A DNA stretch of 64,000 nucleotides from Parvibaculaceae bacterium Mf 1.05b.01 (GCA_000509225.1 BAOK01000001.1:2340914-2404913), one strand, 5' to 3'. Positions 2,378-44,028 are shown, numbered from the stretch's first letter. Notes: generated by a model not told the origin, from the letters alone. A program made the numbers and translations.

Positions 2378-3343
2378 ATGGCGGCCAAGAATCCGTACGA
2401 TCCAGCATTGTTTGGCGAAGACGCGGTATCTGCTGAAACCAAAGCAATCAACGATGCCCTGGTCGATCTTCTGGAGAATTCAGACGACAATTGGGACATC
2501 GGGGTCGTTGAAGCCCGGGCCCGACGCGATCGGGGCGAAGGACCCTTTCCCCTGGTTCCAAAGTCAGATCGTGCGATCACCCGCACCATCCCAGGCAAAG
2601 GCGGCGACGTGGAGTTGCGGATCATCGCTCCTGAAAACCCGAAGGGCGTCTACCTTCATTTGCATGGTGGTGGATGGGTGTTTGGCTCCGCGGACGGCCA
2701 GGACCCTATGCTTGAACGCATTGCAGACAATTGTGGGCTGGCTTGTGTCAGTGTCGAATACCGCCTTGCCCCTGAGCACCCTTATCCCGCCGGGCCTGAC
2801 GATTGCGAAACAGCTGCCGCCTGGTTGGTTGAAAACGCAAAAACAGAGTTCGGCACTGACGTGCTGACCGTTGGCGGAGAAAGTGCGGGCGCCCATTTGG
2901 CCGCCGTCACGTTACTCCGCATGCGCGACCGACACGGGTATGCGGGCTTTGCAGCGGCCAATCTGGTGTTCGGTGCTTTCGATCTTCGTTGGACGCCAAG
3001 TGCACGCGCCTTTGGCAATGAGCCCTATCTGATCCTGCGCACCCATGACCTGCACAAATTCGATGAGTGTTTTATTCCTAAAGGTGCTGACACCTCAGAC
3101 CCGGACATCTCTCCGCTGTTTGCTGACCTGAAAGGCATGCCACCTGCTCTCTTCAGCGTCGGAACGGCGGATGCGCTGCTTGACGATAGCTTGTTCATGC
3201 ATGCCCGGTGGGCAGCGGCTGGAAATGAGACAGAGCTTGCGATCTACCCTGGTGGCGCGCATGGCTTTGTCGCGTTCCCGGGCGAACTTTCTGCTTCGGC
3301 GGTGAAACGCATAGATGCGTTTCTCACTCAGGTTACGAAATGA
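2378..3343 (+). CDS. HSL-family alpha/beta hydrolase (esterase)
   Basis: 321 residues of the hormone-sensitive-lipase family. The oxyanion motif is HGGGW, the nucleophile motif GESAG, and the acid and histidine fall in [10 protein letters not shown] and GGAHGF, completing the triad. Expected to hydrolyse short-chain carboxylic esters in the cytoplasm. The start is placed at ATG 2378, which follows AGAGGGGGAC; the open frame continues 81 bases upstream without a comparable ribosome site. It precedes the thioesterase cluster on the same strand, after a 107-bp gap. Confidence 0.87.
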
Positions 3344-3450
3344 CCCAGATCTCTAAAAAAAGTAGGGGTGCCCTCGCGTCCCGTCAAGAAAATGACTTTC
3401 ACCACGTACCTTTATAGAGTGCGCCGTCTTCAGTCCTTCCTAGAGTCTTC

Positions 3451-4302
3451 ATGACCGATCCTATTCAAACAGTTCAAAGCATCGTCAACACATGGAACTG
3501 CGATGAAGTGGGCCATATGAACGTTCAGTTCTATGTGGCTGCCGCATCTGACGCCAATCGTGCATTTGGTGTTGCGCACGGCCTCAACAAGTCGGTTATC
3601 TCAAGCCGAGATCATATTCGCTTTCATCGCGAATTGCGGGCAGGCGATATTTTCGCGGTCACGAGCCGTGCCTCCGGCACTCATGAGGGAGGGCTCACCC
3701 TCTCCCATGAGCTGCGCAACTCCGCAACCGGTGTTCTTGCCGCAACGTTGACCAGCCAGACCGACCTTCCCGACGGTTTAGACGGGGGACCATATGAACC
3801 GCTGTCAGATGTCGCACTTCCCCGCGGCGTGCCGGGGACTTCCTCTTTGCCCGGTTTGCAGCTTGATGATCAGGCTGCTGCGAACCTCATTCCCATTTAC
3901 CAAGGACTTGTTCATCCCGAGCATTGCGATGAAACAGGCCTCATGCGCCAGCAACATATTATGGGCCGGTTTTCTGATGGCGCCGCGCACCTTTGGCAAC
4001 AGGTCGGGTTTGATCGCGACACGATGATCAAAGCTCGTAGAGGTACGGTGGTTCTGGAGATGCGCCTCGATCGTTTGGCAGATGTTCGGGCCGGGACAGT
4101 TCTTGTCGGCAAGAGCGCCATGGTCGAAGTGATGGGCCGGGTCCTCTGTTTTGCCCATTTCCTGTTTGACGCATCAACCGGCGCACTGGTTGCAACTGGC
4201 GAGGCCGCCGCTGTGATGCTCGACCTGGATGCCCGTAAAACCGTTGCCTTCAGCGATGAAGAGAGCGCCAAGCTCGCGCCCTATCTTATGAAGGTCGCAT
4301 AG
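3451..4302 (+). CDS. Two-hot-dog acyl-CoA thioesterase-like protein, paralogue 1
   Basis: 283 residues containing two 4HBT-type hot-dog domains in tandem. The N half carries WNCDEVGHMNVQFY, with the usual Asp and GH-x-N of thioesterases. The C half carries HCDETGLMRQQHIMGRFSD, a related but altered motif. These enzymes cleave acyl-CoA or acyl-ACP thioesters; the chain specificity is not readable. It is first of three adjacent paralogues (one base to the next gene), probably one operon running toward the acyl-CoA dehydrogenase. Confidence 0.8.
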   Translation: MTDPIQTVQSIVNTWNCDEVGHMNVQFYVAAASDANRAFGVAHGLNKSVISSRDHIRFHRELRAGDIFAVTSRASGTHEGGLTLSHELRNSATGVLAATLTSQTDLPDGLDGGPYEPLSDVALPRGVPGTSSLPGLQLDDQAAANLIPIYQGLVHPEHCDETGLMRQQHIMGRFSDGAAHLWQQVGFDRDTMIKARRGTVVLEMRLDRLADVRAGTVLVGKSAMVEVMGRVLCFAHFLFDASTGALVATGEAAAVMLDLDARKTVAFSDEESAKLAPYLMKVA

Positions 4303-4303
4303 G

Positions 4304-5200
4304 ATGGGTGAGATGATTGATACCTATCGCGGTTATGTGAACCCGTGGGAATGCGACGAGATGGGCCATATGAACATTCAGTTCTATATGGGCAAAACAT
4401 CCGACGCTGCCTTCCATCAACAAGCGTTTCTGGGTCTGGGGTATGAACATCAGCAAACCGAGCGGACAACCTATGTGGCGCTCGAACATCACATCCGGTT
4501 TCACAAAGAACTCTTCGCGAGTGATCTTGTCGCGGTACGCTCAGGCGTTCTGTCGCTGAGTGACAAGACGATGCGAATCTATCAGGAAGTTCGAAACGCG
4601 CTCACAGATACGCTCTCGGCCACATTGGTTGTCGATGTGGGGCATTTTGATCTGAATGCGCGAAAGCTCGTTCCCTGGACCGACTTTATGTGCAGCCAAG
4701 CTGAAAAGATCATGGTTGACCGTCCTGTTGCAGCTCAACCACGCTCTCAACCGGATGGGTCTCTCGACCGAGATGTTTCACTGACACGCGCTGAGACCAA
4801 AGGCATGCACGAAACAAACCGGTCTGCGGTCAATCGCTGGGAGTGTGATGCAAACGACCATATGAATTCGCGCTTCTATCTCGCGCGCTTTTCTGAGTGC
4901 CAGGGGCATATGTGGGCAGCGGCCGGCCTTGATCGCCATTCGCAGAAAGCCAAGGGCCTTGCGACTGCCACAGTTGAGATGCGCCTTGCCTATTTCAAAG
5001 AAATGAATGCCGGGCAAACGCTCTTCGTGCGCACGGGGCTTGAAGCACAGAACGCCAAGACCCTGCGGTACCGGCATTGGATGTTTGACGCCGAGACGGG
5101 CGAAGCTGCCGCGGCCTCTGAAGGCACTGCCCTACTCATCTCGCGGGAAACCCGCAAGGCCGTCGACCTGCCACACGAAATTCGCGACAGACTCGGCTGA
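4304..5200 (+). CDS. Two-hot-dog acyl-CoA thioesterase-like protein, paralogue 2
   Basis: 298 residues. Both halves keep a near-canonical motif: WECDEMGHMNIQFY in the first, WECDANDHMNSRFY in the second. This makes it the most intact of the three paralogues and the best guess for a protein with two working sites. It begins one base after its neighbour stops, so translation is likely coupled. An internal ATG at 4313 is an alternative start. Confidence 0.8.
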   Translation: MGEMIDTYRGYVNPWECDEMGHMNIQFYMGKTSDAAFHQQAFLGLGYEHQQTERTTYVALEHHIRFHKELFASDLVAVRSGVLSLSDKTMRIYQEVRNALTDTLSATLVVDVGHFDLNARKLVPWTDFMCSQAEKIMVDRPVAAQPRSQPDGSLDRDVSLTRAETKGMHETNRSAVNRWECDANDHMNSRFYLARFSECQGHMWAAAGLDRHSQKAKGLATATVEMRLAYFKEMNAGQTLFVRTGLEAQNAKTLRYRHWMFDAETGEAAAASEGTALLISRETRKAVDLPHEIRDRLG

Positions 5201-39488: not shown

Positions 39489-40532
39489 CTAGATTCCGAC
39501 ATCGACGCCAATAGCGTCTTCAAGACGTTTATACCCATCCCGCTTCAGATCAGACGCGAGATCTCGTTTGATTTTGGTTACAAGCTCTGCGCCCTGAAAG
39601 GTGAGCGCTGTGTAAAGCTGCACCAGGGACGCACCGGCCCTGATCTTCTTATAGGCATCTGTGCCCGACGAGACACCGCCAACGCCGATCAAGGGTATCG
39701 TGCCTTTGGTGAGGCGCCGCATGTCTGCCAACACATCCGTCGCCATATCCATCAAAGGCGCGCCTGAGAGCCCACCGGCCTCGGCTGCATGGCGTCCGGA
39801 CACGAGACCGTCGCGCGCGATGGTCGTGTTGGAGACAATGAGACCATCTACCCCGCTCTCCAACACCACGGCGGCGATATCTTCGCGCTCTTCATAGACA
39901 AGGTCCGGCGCGATTTTAAGGAGCACCGGTGTCTGCCCTTTGCGGGCTTCCAGCACACGTCCGAGCAAATCTTCCAGTTCCGCCCGGCTTTGCAAGCCAC
40001 GCAAACCCGGTGTGTTGGGCGATGACACATTGACGGTGAAATAGCTCGCAAGCGCTTCAAAGCGTTTGATGCCCGTCACATAGTCGGCTGCTTTATCTTC
40101 CGTGTCTTTGTTCGCCCCCAGATTGACGCCGACAATGCCACCGCGACCCGCGCGTTTTTTGAGCCGCGTTTCCATTGCTTCATGGCCTTCATTGTTAAAG
40201 CCGAGACGGTTGATGACCGCACGGTCCTGCTGAAGACGGAAAATACGGGGCTTGGGGTTCCCCGACTGAGGACGCGGCGTTGTCGTGCCAACTTCTGCAA
40301 AGCCAAAGCCCAGCTTTAACATTGCGTCAGGCACTTCGCCGTTTTTGTCAAAGCCTGCGGCAATACCCAATGGGTTGGGGAAGTGCATGCCCAACAGATC
40401 AATGCCGAGCGCTTCCGGATCTTTCTTGCCGCACGGCCCCAGGCCCGTCTTCAACGCCAACAGGGTTGCCTGATGCGCCTGTTCCGGGTCCATCAGCCGC
40501 AGGAAGGGTAGAGCAAGTGCAGAGAGGCTCAT
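39489..40532 (-). CDS. pyrD: Dihydroorotate dehydrogenase (quinone), class 2
   Basis: 347 residues, the class 2 size with an N-terminal membrane-binding helix pair. FMN and substrate motifs: NRLGFNNEGHEA, VNVSSPNTPGLRGLQ (active-site Ser), SNTTIARDG and GVGGVSSGTDAYKKI. Fourth step of pyrimidine synthesis, with electrons passed to ubiquinone. Its ATG overlaps the stop of the DUF952 gene (ATGA), a common alphaproteobacterial pairing. Confidence 0.95.
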   Translation of the reverse strand: MSLSALALPFLRLMDPEQAHQATLLALKTGLGPCGKKDPEALGIDLLGMHFPNPLGIAAGFDKNGEVPDAMLKLGFGFAEVGTTTPRPQSGNPKPRIFRLQQDRAVINRLGFNNEGHEAMETRLKKRAGRGGIVGVNLGANKDTEDKAADYVTGIKRFEALASYFTVNVSSPNTPGLRGLQSRAELEDLLGRVLEARKGQTPVLLKIAPDLVYEEREDIAAVVLESGVDGLIVSNTTIARDGLVSGRHAAEAGGLSGAPLMDMATDVLADMRRLTKGTIPLIGVGGVSSGTDAYKKIRAGASLVQLYTALTFQGAELVTKIKRDLASDLKRDGYKRLEDAIGVDVGI

Positions 40533-40897
40533 GAGCTCTCTCCTGCAGCGGCAACATGAGCTGGAAACTGATGCTTGCTGTTCGCCCCGACAGGAAGGTC
40601 ATCCACCCGGGTGACGTGGTTCATCTCCAGCGGCGCATAAAGATGCGGAAAAAGATCGCCGCCGCGCGAGGCCTCCCACTTAAGTGCCTCTCCCAATGCC
40701 TCAGTTGACACACTCACAAGCAGAAGCCCCTCCTGCCCGGTGAAATGGAGGGCGGCTGTCTCCGGCGCCTGGGCAGCGGTCGAGAAGTGAATATATCCGT
40801 CTGTAAGGTCGATCAATGCGCCCTTGAAGACCCCCGCAGTCTCAGCTGCCGCCCACTCATCCTTGCTTATGATTTTGTAGATCTCGCTGGCGCCCAC
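40529..40897 (-). CDS. DUF952 domain protein
   Basis: 122 residues from GTG 40897 (AAGG upstream). IYKIISKDEWAAAETAGVFKG and DGYIHFSTAAQ are the DUF952 hallmarks. Function unknown; it is often found directly before pyrD, as here, and resembles a small ADP-ribosyl-type fold. Its upstream region is interrupted by the mobile element starting about 128 bases away. Confidence 0.9.
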   Translation of the reverse strand: MGASEIYKIISKDEWAAAETAGVFKGALIDLTDGYIHFSTAAQAPETAALHFTGQEGLLLVSVSTEALGEALKWEASRGGDLFPHLYAPLEMNHVTRVDDLPVGANSKHQFPAHVAAAGESS

Positions 40898-41011: not shown

Positions 41012-41024
41012 TAGGCTTGTTTTC
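41012..41024 (+). repeat. Left copy of 13-bp direct repeat (candidate target-site duplication)
   Basis: TAGGCTTGTTTTC, repeated exactly at 43354-43366. The two copies flank the transposase and passenger genes. A 13-bp identity at these spots is not expected by chance, although the IS1595 family usually makes 8-bp duplications. Confidence 0.65.
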
Positions 41025-41027
41025 AGA

Positions 41028-41046
41028 ATTATATACTTGACGTACC
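41028..41046 (+). repeat. Left terminal inverted repeat
   Basis: ATTATATACTTGACGTACC; its inward TTGACG (41037-41042), followed 17 bases later by CATATG, may also be the transposase promoter. Three bases separate it from the left direct repeat. Confidence 0.65.
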
Positions 41047-41087
41047 AACCCTCCGTACCCATATGAGTTGGGCAAGGAGATAAGCCA

Positions 41088-42056
41088 ATGTTCGACCTCA
41101 CAAACGAAATCTATCAAGACAAAAACAAGGCCCGCGAACACCTAGAGGCTATCCATTGGCCCGATGGTCCTGTCTGCCCTCACTGCGGCAATTGCGACCA
41201 AGCCCGCATTACAAAGCTCTCAGGCAAATCAACCCGTCCCGGCGTCCACAAGTGCAAAGAGTGCCGCAAGCCCTTCACTGTGACCGTGGGCACCGTCTTT
41301 GAGCGCTCTAAAGTGCCCCTCAACAAGTGGGTGCTGGCAACTCACCTTATGGCCGCATCCAAAAAAGGCATATCTGCCCACCAGCTACACCGCATGTTGG
41401 GCGTCACCTATAAAACCGCTTGGTTCATGTCTCACCGCATCCGCGAAGCCATGAAAGAGAATACCGATACATCCGGCCCCCTAGGTGGCGAAGGTAAGAC
41501 CGTAGAAGCCGACGAAACCTATATCGGCAAGCGTGACCGCCCTTATGTCTCTCCCCAGCGTAAAGGCCGTCCCTACCTCAAGAACCGCAAAGGCGGCATC
41601 CAGAAGCGTACCGTTGTTGCTCTGGTAGAACGCGGCGGCAAAGTCCGCTCTTTCCACATTGACCAAGCGAACAAAGAAACTGTGCGTGACATTCTTGTCC
41701 GCAATGCAGACCGTAAATCAAACCTCTATACCGACGAGTCCCGCCTCTACACAGTGACAGGCAAGGAATACAACTCCCACGAAACAGTCAATCATTCCGC
41801 CAAGGAATACGCTCGCGGCAAGGTTCACACCAACACCATCGAGAACGTCTTCTCTGTCTTCAAACGCGGTATGCGTGGCATCTATCAGCATTGTGGCGAG
41901 GCTCACCTGCACCGCTATCTCGCTGAATTTGACTTCCGCTATAACCACCGTTCAGCCCTGAAAATCTCAGATAACGAACGCGCCAACGCCCTTTTGGCAG
42001 GTGCCCGCGGTAAGCGCCTGACCTATCGGCGGACTGGTGAAGCCACGCTCGCTTAA
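41088..42056 (+). CDS. IS1595-family transposase (ISXO2-like DDE)
   Basis: 322 residues after AAGGAG. An N-terminal zinc finger (CPHC at 30-33, CKEC near 60) precedes a helix-turn-helix (HQLHRMLGVTYKTAWFMSHR) and the DDE catalytic core: VEADETYIGKR, NLYTDESRLY and TNTIENVFSVFKRGMRG. The frame is intact and all catalytic regions are present, so the element may be active. Family assigned from these blocks. Confidence 0.92.
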   Translation: MFDLTNEIYQDKNKAREHLEAIHWPDGPVCPHCGNCDQARITKLSGKSTRPGVHKCKECRKPFTVTVGTVFERSKVPLNKWVLATHLMAASKKGISAHQLHRMLGVTYKTAWFMSHRIREAMKENTDTSGPLGGEGKTVEADETYIGKRDRPYVSPQRKGRPYLKNRKGGIQKRTVVALVERGGKVRSFHIDQANKETVRDILVRNADRKSNLYTDESRLYTVTGKEYNSHETVNHSAKEYARGKVHTNTIENVFSVFKRGMRGIYQHCGEAHLHRYLAEFDFRYNHRSALKISDNERANALLAGARGKRLTYRRTGEATLA

Positions 42057-42162
42057 GCAAAAAGCGAGGGCTTTCCAGCGATGGGCTAAGCGTCAGAAAT
42101 AGACGCCTGTGATTCTCTATCTCATCCGGTATAGTGAAACCAGAGATTCAGATGGAGAAGTC

Positions 42163-42378
42163 ATGGCAGAAGACCGAATAACCGTCACTTGCGCCAAGTG
42201 CAAGAGCACAAAGTTTTCATTTCCCAACGATCCACCCAAGGACGATGACATCATCACTTGCTCCGAGTGTGGAAATGTCGTCGGGAGATACGCTGATATC
42301 AGAGCAGCGGCTATGGACGCAGCTAAGGCCGAGGTCGGCAAGATCGTTTCCGATGTTTTTGGCAAGCTCAAGAAGTAG
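42163..42378 (+). CDS. Small zinc-ribbon protein (transposon passenger)
   Basis: 71 residues from ATG 42163 with GGAGAAG upstream. Two CxxC pairs (CAKCKS and CSECGN) separated by a polar loop form a zinc ribbon; a helical C-terminal tail follows. It resembles small zinc-binding proteins seen on phages and transposons. Function unknown; DNA or RNA binding is possible. Located 106 bases after the transposase, same strand. Confidence 0.75.
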   Translation: MAEDRITVTCAKCKSTKFSFPNDPPKDDDIITCSECGNVVGRYADIRAAAMDAAKAEVGKIVSDVFGKLKK

Positions 42379-42429
42379 GTCGGGAGGAAATGACTCAAAT
42401 GCAATCACAATCTTTCGATTCATAACAGC

Positions 42430-42453
42430 AAAAAACCCGCCTATTTGGTGGGC
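42430..42453 (-). terminator. Terminator at the end of the 48-residue gene
   Basis: On the minus strand CCCACC-AAATA-GGCGGG is followed by TTTTTTG. The stem has one A-C mismatch and contains the stop codon. On the plus strand the same stem is fully paired with one G-U, so it may act for the zinc-ribbon gene too. Confidence 0.6.
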
Positions 42454-42587
42454 TTCTCCTTTTTCGGTTTCTGTTCTGGCTTCTTGCCTTCTTTCTCCCC
42501 CTCTTTCGGTGGAGGCGGAGTCTTCAACATGCGGCGGAGTATCTCGTCACCTTCCTCCGTTTCTTTATTATCTTTAGGATTTGGCAT
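42441..42587 (-). CDS. 48-residue basic/acidic small protein with RRMLKTPPPP motif
   Basis: ATG 42587 to TAG 42441-42443. A TGGAGG site stands seven bases before the start. The chain begins MPNPKDNKETEEGDEILRRM, continues LKTPPPPKEG and ends in a Lys-rich tail. The RRMLKTPP element recalls a widespread class of tiny uncharacterised bacterial proteins. A hairpin and T6 run (42430-42453) terminate it at the stop codon. Its start codon overlaps the plus-strand gene's start codon by two bases. Too short for routine gene finding. Confidence 0.7.
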   Translation of the reverse strand: MPNPKDNKETEEGDEILRRMLKTPPPPKEGEKEGKKPEQKPKKEKPTK

Positions 42588-43185
42588 GTCTAAACCTCCA
42601 GATATTGAGCTCCCCCCTCTGACGGGGCCAAGCCGGGAAGAGTGTGATTACACGCTCGGCGTATATATGAGGGTATGGGGCGCTGTAGAAACAGCGGTAT
42701 CTCAGCTTATTCAAAAATTCCTGGATACAGACCCAATCTCCGCTCAAATAGTCATTCGGACCGTAGGGTCGATGCACGCCCAAAGAGAAATGGCTTCTGA
42801 GTTAGGACTTCATCGACTCGCTAAAGCTTCAGACCGACAAACCCTAAAGAAGCTAATGAGAAGACTAAAGTCAGCCAATACAAAACGAAATAGAATTGTT
42901 CATGGTGCATGGCAGCTAGTCATTGTCATGGGGGAGAAAACAAGGGCAACTCCACTTCGCGCCAAATCTCAAGAGTGGATTCGATCTTACACTCCATCCG
43001 AAGACGCTGTCTTTCAGGAGCTCATGCAAGGAAAGAACAAAAAACTGAATGCCGCATATAAATTTCCACCGGATTCAATTATCTCTCATGCAAAATCTTC
43101 GCAGTCTCTAGCTGAAGACATCATAAGTTTCGCTAACGCGGCACAATTACGGCCCCCGAGAATCCCGCAGCACGTAGAATGGTGA
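42586..43185 (+). CDS. Unknown passenger protein with HEPN-like R-x4-H motif
   Basis: 199 residues from ATG 42586 (TAGGAT upstream). Mostly helical. RNRIVHG at residues 101-107 gives R-x4-H, the active-site pattern of HEPN ribonucleases, following a basic helix (LKKLMRRLKSANTK). No other domain is recognised. Codon use is more AT-rich than in flanking genes, indicating transfer. It starts back-to-back with the 48-residue gene and its end overlaps the 65-residue gene by 53 bases. Confidence 0.7.
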   Translation: MSKPPDIELPPLTGPSREECDYTLGVYMRVWGAVETAVSQLIQKFLDTDPISAQIVIRTVGSMHAQREMASELGLHRLAKASDRQTLKKLMRRLKSANTKRNRIVHGAWQLVIVMGEKTRATPLRAKSQEWIRSYTPSEDAVFQELMQGKNKKLNAAYKFPPDSIISHAKSSQSLAEDIISFANAAQLRPPRIPQHVEW

Positions 43186-43330
43186 GAACGGCTTCTTGCA
43201 AATCATACGCTGGCGCCCCCTCACGCAAATCTTCTCCAAGCTCTTCTCGCAATAGAAAGATAAAGTGCGCCATATCATCCGGCGCTATCTCAATATCCGC
43301 AGTTTCTTTGGTTTTCTCTGAATTGCTCAT
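43133..43330 (-). CDS. 65-residue acidic hypothetical protein (passenger)
   Basis: Acidic chain (IEIAPDDMAHFIFLLREELG, then YDLQEAVLTILRAAGF). No family recognised. ATG 43330 lies five bases inside the right inverted repeat, leaving little room for a promoter within the element. Ribosome site weak (CCGGAT). It overlaps the end of the plus-strand neighbour by 53 bases, so one of the two could be shorter than drawn. Confidence 0.5.
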   Translation of the reverse strand: MSNSEKTKETADIEIAPDDMAHFIFLLREELGEDLREGAPAYDLQEAVLTILRAAGFSGAVIVPR

Positions 43331-43351
43331 ATCCGGTACGTCACATATATC
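43323..43351 (+). promoter_or_regulatory. Candidate outward promoter at the right end of the transposon
   Basis: TTGCTC at 43323-43328, 17-base spacer, TATATC at 43346-43351. It would start RNA near 43358, about 25 bases before the S24 repressor gene, whose own upstream region was displaced by the insertion. Confidence 0.35.
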
Positions 43352-43353
43352 AT
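43335..43353 (-). repeat. Right terminal inverted repeat
   Basis: On the minus strand ATGATATATGTGACGTACC; 16 of 19 bases match the left repeat. It abuts the right direct repeat with no gap. Confidence 0.65.
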
Positions 43354-43366
43354 TAGGCTTGTTTTC
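43354..43366 (+). repeat. Right copy of 13-bp direct repeat
   Basis: TAGGCTTGTTTTC, identical to 41012-41024. It ends 17 bases before the start codon of the S24 repressor. Confidence 0.65.
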
Positions 43367-43383
43367 CTATTATAGTCGCCCCC

Positions 43384-44028
43384 ATGACAGATTCACTTTC
43401 TCATGGCGCAGTTTGGTCCGCCATCGACACACTAGCGGACCGCTATGGCCATTCGCCGTCCGGCCTCGCCCGCCTGGCGGGCCTTGATCCCACGACATTC
43501 AACAAATCCAAGCGACGCACCGCATCTGGACGGCTTCGCTGGCCGAGCACAGAGAGCTTGTCCAAAATCCTTGAGGCCACCGGCGCAACACTGGACGAGT
43601 TTTCGTCCCTCGCTGGATCGGGCGGGTCAGGCACCTCAGCCCTCTCCCTCATCCCTGTGATTGGCATGGCGCAGGCGGGTGATGGAGGGTTCTTTGATGA
43701 TGCAGGATTTCCTGTCGGCGGCGGGTTTGATGAGATCAGCTTTTCCGACGTGGGCGACCCTAACGCCTATGCGTTGGAGATTAGTGGTGACAGCATGGTG
43801 CCGCTCTATCGCCACGGCGACCGGGTGATTGTGTCACCTGCAGCGACCGTGCGACGCGGCGACCGGGTTGTTGTCAAAACCGGGGAAGGGGAAGTTCTGG
43901 CGAAGCTGCTCACCAGACAAACGCCAACATCGATTGAGCTTACCTCGCTCAACCCCGACTATGACGACCGCACCCTGAATGTAAGCGACGTTGTTTTCAT
44001 GGCGAAGATTATCTGGGCGAGCCAATAG
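43384..44028 (+). CDS. S24/LexA-like transcriptional repressor
   Basis: 214 residues. An N-terminal helix-turn-helix (HSPSGLARLAGLDPTTFNKS) precedes a LexA/CI-type latent protease domain. ISGDSMVPLYRHGD holds the catalytic Ser near 137 and RRGDRVVVKTGEG the Lys. It may autocleave on RecA activation and control stress or other genes. The mobile element inserted about 30 bases upstream, so its expression has probably been rewired. Its end overlaps the converging TPR gene by 20 bases. Confidence 0.87.
   Translation: MTDSLSHGAVWSAIDTLADRYGHSPSGLARLAGLDPTTFNKSKRRTASGRLRWPSTESLSKILEATGATLDEFSSLAGSGGSGTSALSLIPVIGMAQAGDGGFFDDAGFPVGGGFDEISFSDVGDPNAYALEISGDSMVPLYRHGDRVIVSPAATVRRGDRVVVKTGEGEVLAKLLTRQTPTSIELTSLNPDYDDRTLNVSDVVFMAKIIWASQ

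Follow-up and report, generated by a model that had tools for sequence, protein, structure and literature searches.

The window analysed here, a stretch of 64,000 nucleotides from Parvibaculaceae bacterium Mf 1.05b.01, contains a 2334-bp insertion sequence (IS) of the IS1595 family carrying four small cargo genes. Based on the comparison with its relatives we consider it probable (roughly 75%) that this element represents a passenger-carrying IS1595 lineage which is specialised on RogA-type operators of gene transfer agents (GTAs) and rebuilds the operator dyad at both of its ends. The transposase generates ordinary 8-bp duplications but selects the palindrome TAGG-N8-CCTA, which has an AT-rich core and shares its outer bases with the ends of the element. 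This palindrome appears to serve, in alphaproteobacteria, as an operator-like site preceding GTA regulatory genes and the gene of a RogA-like helix-turn-helix (HTH) S24 protein. Each terminus would supply the missing half-site, so that a full dyad is restored at each junction; the neighbouring gene thereby probably keeps its control, and the junction presumably remains a target for further elements, resulting in arrays. The features of the element, with positions counted from the first letter of the window, are:

41024-43357, plus strand: complete element of the IS1595 family, 2334 bp (ends placed by three empty sites and by 71 relatives with an exact 8-bp repeat)
41016-41023: left copy of the 8-bp target duplication, CTTGTTTT (comparison with relatives)
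43358-43365: right copy of the 8-bp target duplication, CTTGTTTT (comparison with relatives)
41024-41046, plus strand: left terminal inverted repeat, CAGAATTATATACTTGACGTACC (from the sequence; the counterpart in relatives is CCTAATTATATACTTGAC)
43335-43357, minus strand: right terminal inverted repeat, CCTAATGATATATGTGACGTACC (from the sequence and relatives)
41012-41027: left junction dyad TAGG-CTTGTTTT-CAGA, the half contributed by the element being degenerate (matrix score 6.1)
43354-43369: right junction dyad TAGG-CTTGTTTT-CCTA, operator-like, in front of the S24 gene (matrix score 15.8)
41088-42056, plus strand: IS1595-family DDE transposase, 322 aa (NCBIfam and Pfam profiles)

Target motif and restored dyads

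Eighty loci with close relatives of the transposase were retrieved, all named ones originating from alphaproteobacteria, and the element ends were searched for without use of the flanking sequences. For 71 elements, that of the window included, both ends could be assigned together with an exact 8-bp direct repeat, while 75 elements with both ends located form the set used for the classes of insertion sites. The terminus common to the relatives is CCTAATTATATAC(T/G)TGAC.

The pooled target consensus of the 71 elements reads TAGGAATATATTCCTA, with AGG on the 5' side and CCT on the 3' side of the AT-rich 8-bp core in 47 of them, and the best form of the 16-bp palindrome TAGG-N8-CCTA is TAGGAAnnnnTTCCTA. 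Matrices derived with one site class left out recovered the same motif at each class. The terminal bases of the elements agree with their own targets at 6.04 of eight positions compared to 5.63 of eight for permuted targets, a value as high being reached in none of 1000 permutations. The palindrome itself is rare, as TAGG-W8-CCTA was detected in only 30 of 241 genomes and mostly as a single occurrence.

Both junctions score as a dyad in 59 of the 71 elements. In the window the right junction, TAGGCTTGTTTTCCTA, reaches the same score as the reconstructed empty site, and the original spacing to the S24 gene is kept. Arrays, in which a second element end lies across one shared 8-bp core, were found at six loci (L081, L092, L094, L098, L105 and L121). 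At the left end of the element the dyad precedes the TTGAC of the transposase promoter by about 10 bp, and it is possible that the transposase is repressed by the same regulator as the neighbouring gene.

The element of Tepidicaulis marinus (L026, also L111) has different termini (GGGG.../CGGG...) and resides in a GC-rich palindrome, CCCCGG-CATAAAGC-CGGGG.

Insertion sites at GTA-related promoters

The promoters of three loci, namely the GTA cluster, gafY and the HTH+S24 gene, harbour 40 of the 75 elements. The GTA-cluster promoter region, where the dyad abuts a TTGAC -35 box, accounts for 21 (19 recognised by the downstream terminase gene and two by shared flank sequence), and 16 were located upstream of a small Bac_DnaA_C protein, the GTA activator GafY, in one case with a second element in between. 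The remaining three, the element of the window among them, lie upstream of the LexA-like HTH+S24 gene. The target-site gene, wherever found, is oriented away from the element. Since the transposase tree requires at least 25 changes of site class and at least seven of orientation at the GTA site, the distribution reflects many independent insertion events.

A further GTA-related site marks the 3' end of the cluster; here the copy G001:C33 adjoins the GTA_TIM and DUF2793 genes. The window's own genome has an empty version of this site, TAGGTTTATTTTCCTA, and in G000, G002, G010 and G240 it represents the sole TAGG-W8-CCTA copy of the genome. The motif is conserved at the GTA 3' end at L276:3804 (G000:C2:1703803), L278:4117, L279:5950 and L280:2776, and in at least some genomes it precedes a small gene pointing away from the cluster.

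Two partial elements were also observed. In a more distant congener (L025, G005:C2, 3347-4414) a right end and HEPN-like cargo occur at the same S24 promoter without a transposase or a recognisable left end, which identifies a truncated relative. At L024 (G001:C67, about 3330-4806) a right end is followed by CCAGGATTTTTTTTCCTATA and cargo open reading frames (ORFs) of 257 and 173 aa; no transposase was detected at the DNA level and the left end was not found, so this locus is possibly a non-autonomous derivative.

The RogA-like S24 protein

The insertion separates two host genes:

43384-44028, plus strand: 214-aa HTH+S24 LexA-like protein, RogA-like (Pfam; dyad upstream in homologues)
40529-40897, minus strand: DUF952 protein, to the left of the insertion (profile match)

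The S24 protein matches PF00717 (Peptidase_S24) at 4e-21 and an Xre-like HTH at 3.3e-5, the latter just under its cut-off. RogA is a 213-aa HTH+S24 repressor of gafYZ, the promoter region of which it binds at inverted repeats GGAA-N4-TTCC (Gozzi et al., PMC9632790). With its N-terminal HTH, its C-terminal S24 domain and a length of 214 aa compared to about 213 aa, the protein of the window fits the RogA architecture, and the target TAGGAA-N4-TTCCTA contains the exact GGAA-N4-TTCC core. Architecture, length and site thus point to orthology with RogA, and the RogA-like protein presumably binds the TAGG-N8-CCTA sites.

With a matrix built from targets other than the S24 sites, a dyad was detected in the 120 bp preceding the S24 gene in 36 of 47 genomes (2.7 expected by shuffling; 1/47 in coding controls) and in 21 of 22 element-hosting genomes, which amounts to 57 of the 69 loci tested. 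Tepidicaulis marinus, the element of which differs in termini and palindrome, is the one host without a dyad at this promoter. All 22 sampled hosts encode the S24 gene compared to 33 of 144 genomes class-wide; as the hosts form a phylogenetically skewed set and the two counts use different cut-offs, this comparison counts as supporting evidence only. An initial annotation of this DNA, made from the sequence alone, had already named the S24 neighbour but overlooked that the insertion apparently lies in an operator of the GTA-repressor type.

Evaluation of the operator hypothesis

Several observations weigh against a specialisation on RogA-type GTA operators. Insertions at other loci account for 35 of the 75 elements, nine targets score poorly for the motif, and the motif is present at GTA promoters in only part of the class. 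At the gafY promoters of the window's own family it is weak and not enriched, so the use of hotspots is lineage-dependent. The only sites at which RogA was found in Caulobacter are gafYZ and CCNA_02002; neither its own promoter nor that of the GTA was among them (PMC9632790). Furthermore, Caulobacter RogA is said to lack the LexA-type cleavage residues (PMC9632790), while Ser137, Lys174 and AG98-99 are present in the S24 protein of the window and in 42-43 of 47 homologues. Because these residues are retained we refer to the protein as RogA-like and not as RogA; unlike Caulobacter RogA, the RogA-like proteins (window, L160-L212) may be cleavable during DNA damage.

One possible, though doubtful, alternative is that the transposase merely prefers AT-rich intergenic palindromes and that their coincidence with GTA operators is of no regulatory significance to the element. 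Since the motif is rare and several single copies lie at the GTA 3' end, sequence preference alone could steer elements to GTA operators and explain the hotspots; moreover, the motif is still found in 23 of the 32 insertions at other loci that were scored, and the Tepidicaulis element occupies a different palindrome. However, element ends and targets covary, more than half of the insertions across many genera are found at the three GTA-related promoters, and the dyads are restored at both ends.

It seems rather improbable that the palindrome is the operator of another regulator, for example an XRE-family protein, and not of the S24 protein. That RogA was not reported at its own promoter would agree with such a regulator, but the published RogA site matches the core of the target, and the frequency of the motif upstream of the S24 gene is as autoregulation would predict. 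It is quite improbable, finally, that the bound repressor protein tethers the transposase to the sites and that the DNA sequence does not guide it: although the S24 gene is present in all sampled hosts and the insertions cluster at its presumed sites, the element termini themselves correspond to the half-sites of the target, and there are insertions without any motif.

Boundaries of the element and length of the target duplication

As stated by the initial annotation, an exact 13-bp repeat, TAGGCTTGTTTTC, flanks the element of the window (41012-41024 and 43354-43366), and no third copy exists in the 3.8-Mb genome. The predicted empty site was found in the congeners G001, G002 and G003, which have one unbroken TAGGCTTGTATTCCTA between the DUF952 and S24 genes; on these three sites the left and right element flanks overlap by exactly 13 bp. 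Because three congeners have the uninterrupted site, sequence comparison confirms the insertion in the window as real and recent, and the empty sites point to transposition of the element.

The annotated 13-bp duplication itself has to be revised. The duplication comprises exactly 8 bp in the 71 related elements, so the comparison identifies the ordinary 8-bp CTTGTTTT as the true duplication in the window, the other five matching bases being target flanks (TAGG...CCTA) that equal the element termini. Due to this resemblance the apparent repeats exceed 8 bp, ranging from 8 to 18 bp in most relatives and being longer in a few, whereas targets without TAGG/CCTA show only about 8-10 bp. The alternative already offered in the annotation, 8 bp plus coincidence, was therefore right about the 8 bp, to which the similarity of target and terminus is added. 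A duplication of 13 or 16 bp was ruled out by L062 and L078, the targets of which lack the full motif and which nevertheless retain their CCTA ends. An unusual IS1595 transposase making true 13-bp duplications is hence hardly conceivable, despite the exact 13-bp repeats in the window and in G001:C33 and the empty sites with one copy, as the apparent repeats vary around a constant 8 bp and the motif-less targets contradict it.

The terminal inverted repeats comprise 23 bp in the same register, with 18 of 23 positions matching between 41024-41046 and 43335-43357. The inverted repeats annotated at 41028-41046 and 43335-43353 are real but, at 19 bp, too short, since the four outermost bases were missed at each end. 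The left terminus of the window element is CAGAATTATATAC, with CAGA in place of the usual CCTA, which accounts for the 3-base offset left unexplained in the annotation, where the repeat had been begun at ATTATATAC. Since the copy G001:C33 has the same CAGA terminus at a different insertion site, this end is, judged by its sequence, a lineage variant able to insert and not the product of decay at the window site. The search for further copies suggested by the annotation returned none in the same genome, where the element is single-copy, and a plasmid search revealed similarity at the transposase level only and no close copy of the whole element.

Transposase and cargo genes

The transposase ORF is intact, as annotated, and scores 208 bits against the NCBIfam IS1595 model NF033547 (cut-off 75) as well as above the curated cut-offs of PF12762 (DDE_Tnp_IS1595) and PF12760 (Zn_ribbon_IS1595). 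The element thus combines a DDE transposase with an N-terminal zinc ribbon, an 8-bp duplication and terminal inverted repeats, as characteristic of the IS1595 family. Duplications of similar length were described for ISApl4 (8-bp repeats) and IS1016 elements (7-9 bp) (PMC12561309).

The four small cargo ORFs and the AT-richer composition of their region (47-50% GC compared to 56-60% outside) agree with the initial annotation:

42163-42378, plus strand: 71-aa zinc-ribbon-like protein with four Cys as two CxxC pairs (ORF; weak Pfam zinc-ribbon matches only)
42441-42587, minus strand: 48-aa conserved small protein with the motif RRMLKTPP (conservation and codon-position entropy)
42586-43185, plus strand: 199-aa HEPN-like protein, R101-x4-H106 (alignment, structure model and structural matches)
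43133-43330, minus strand: 65-aa ORF at the right end (ORF; no Pfam or NCBIfam match)

The relatives are mostly 2.0-3.2 kb in length and share a common plan, in which the transposase gene is followed by at least one small gene that varies between elements, then by a minus-strand ORF about 50 aa long and usually by a plus-strand gene of 170-300 aa. The variable genes include a PemK/MazF toxin in L101 and a DUF3892 protein in L123. The minus-strand ORF, carrying the motif RR(L/M)LxTPP, was detected in at least 45 of 71 elements, and its codon-position entropy (0.97/0.59/1.53) indicates that it is coding. It lies head-to-head with the HEPN-like gene, with start codons that share a CATG in the case of the window. 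The longest relative (L058, 5678 bp), located at GTA promoter flank sequence, contains seven cargo ORFs and a small opposite-strand ORF with the TPP motif, and may be a composite of two elements.

The last plus-strand gene is HEPN-like in 44 of 71 elements. R101 and H106 are the sole invariant residues of a 35-member alignment with a mean column identity of 15%, in agreement with the conserved R-x4-6-H motif of the HEPN superfamily. The structure model is a helical bundle (pLDDT 80), and its structural matches comprise several HEPN toxins, the HEPN chains 2hsb, 3o10, 7bxo, 7ae9 and 1jog appearing at modest Z scores of 6-7.3, which is within the range of common bundles. Regarding the curated HEPN profiles, the protein of the window has no Pfam match, and HEPN_RiboL-PSP is matched by a single one of the 35 relatives (1.3e-5). 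Foldseek returned no significant PDB hit, either for the HEPN-like model or for C1, the second cargo family. PADLOC returned weak scattered matches only and no known defence family for the HEPN cargo, and the literature searched contained no description of an IS1595 element with HEPN cargo. By analogy we lean slightly towards the cargo being an RNase-type toxin or defence module, with the HEPN protein as its putative RNase or as part of a defence or addiction module.

Implications and comparison with known systems

If the elements are specialised on RogA-type GTA operators, the IS1595 lineage gains a defined 16-bp target and a target-rebuilding mode of insertion, which accounts for the long, variable apparent duplications and the arrays. 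Mobile elements would furthermore be linked to GTAs, domesticated phage particles the ecological drivers of which are debated, and the insertions provide a natural map of candidate RogA-type operators at the GTA-cluster promoter, gafY, the S24 gene and the gene at the GTA 3' end. With dyads at their ends, the elements may be co-regulated with the GTA. Only tentatively can this be extended to a parasitism of the GTA circuit, in which the operators at the ends would place the transposase under the GTA repressor, transposition would be switched on with GTA production, the 2-3 kb element would be packaged and delivered, and the HEPN cargo would serve addiction or defence.

The control of GTAs by RogA and GafYZ (PMC9632790, PMC11150451) provides the HTH+S24 repressor, the GGAA-N4-TTCC operators and the gafY and GTA promoters that appear as target sites here; no link to transposons was reported there, and the sites at the S24 and GTA promoters are assigned here by sequence only. 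A literature search found no paper joining IS1595 with GTAs or RogA. The invariant Rx4H and the predicted helical bundle of the cargo protein resemble HEPN RNases of toxin-antitoxin and defence systems, from which it differs in that no Pfam HEPN model matches at its cut-off and that the would-be partner, the 48-aa protein, is absent from the libraries searched.

IS1595 elements with passenger genes are already known as a family, and such 'transporter IS' were reportedly described by Siguier et al. in 2009 (cited in PMC12561309). The elements analysed here share with them the transposase domains, inverted repeats, 8-bp duplication and passenger genes, but differ in that their 16-bp palindromic target resembles their own termini, that they insert repeatedly at promoters of GTA regulation and that their cargo follows the plan of HEPN plus small ORF. 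As far as the searched literature shows, this cargo plan is new, and so are the operator-like nature of the target, its regeneration and the repeated insertion at GTA regulatory promoters. IS30 similarly inserts into near-palindromic hot spots or beside its own ends (PMC9333248) but belongs to an unrelated family, whereas here an operator-like target is rebuilt at both ends with 8-bp duplications. A preference for a conserved intergenic palindrome is also shared with the ISs targeting repetitive extragenic palindromic (REP) sequences (PMC1525189); while these are repeats without a fixed neighbouring gene, the elements described here recur at specific regulatory promoters across genera.
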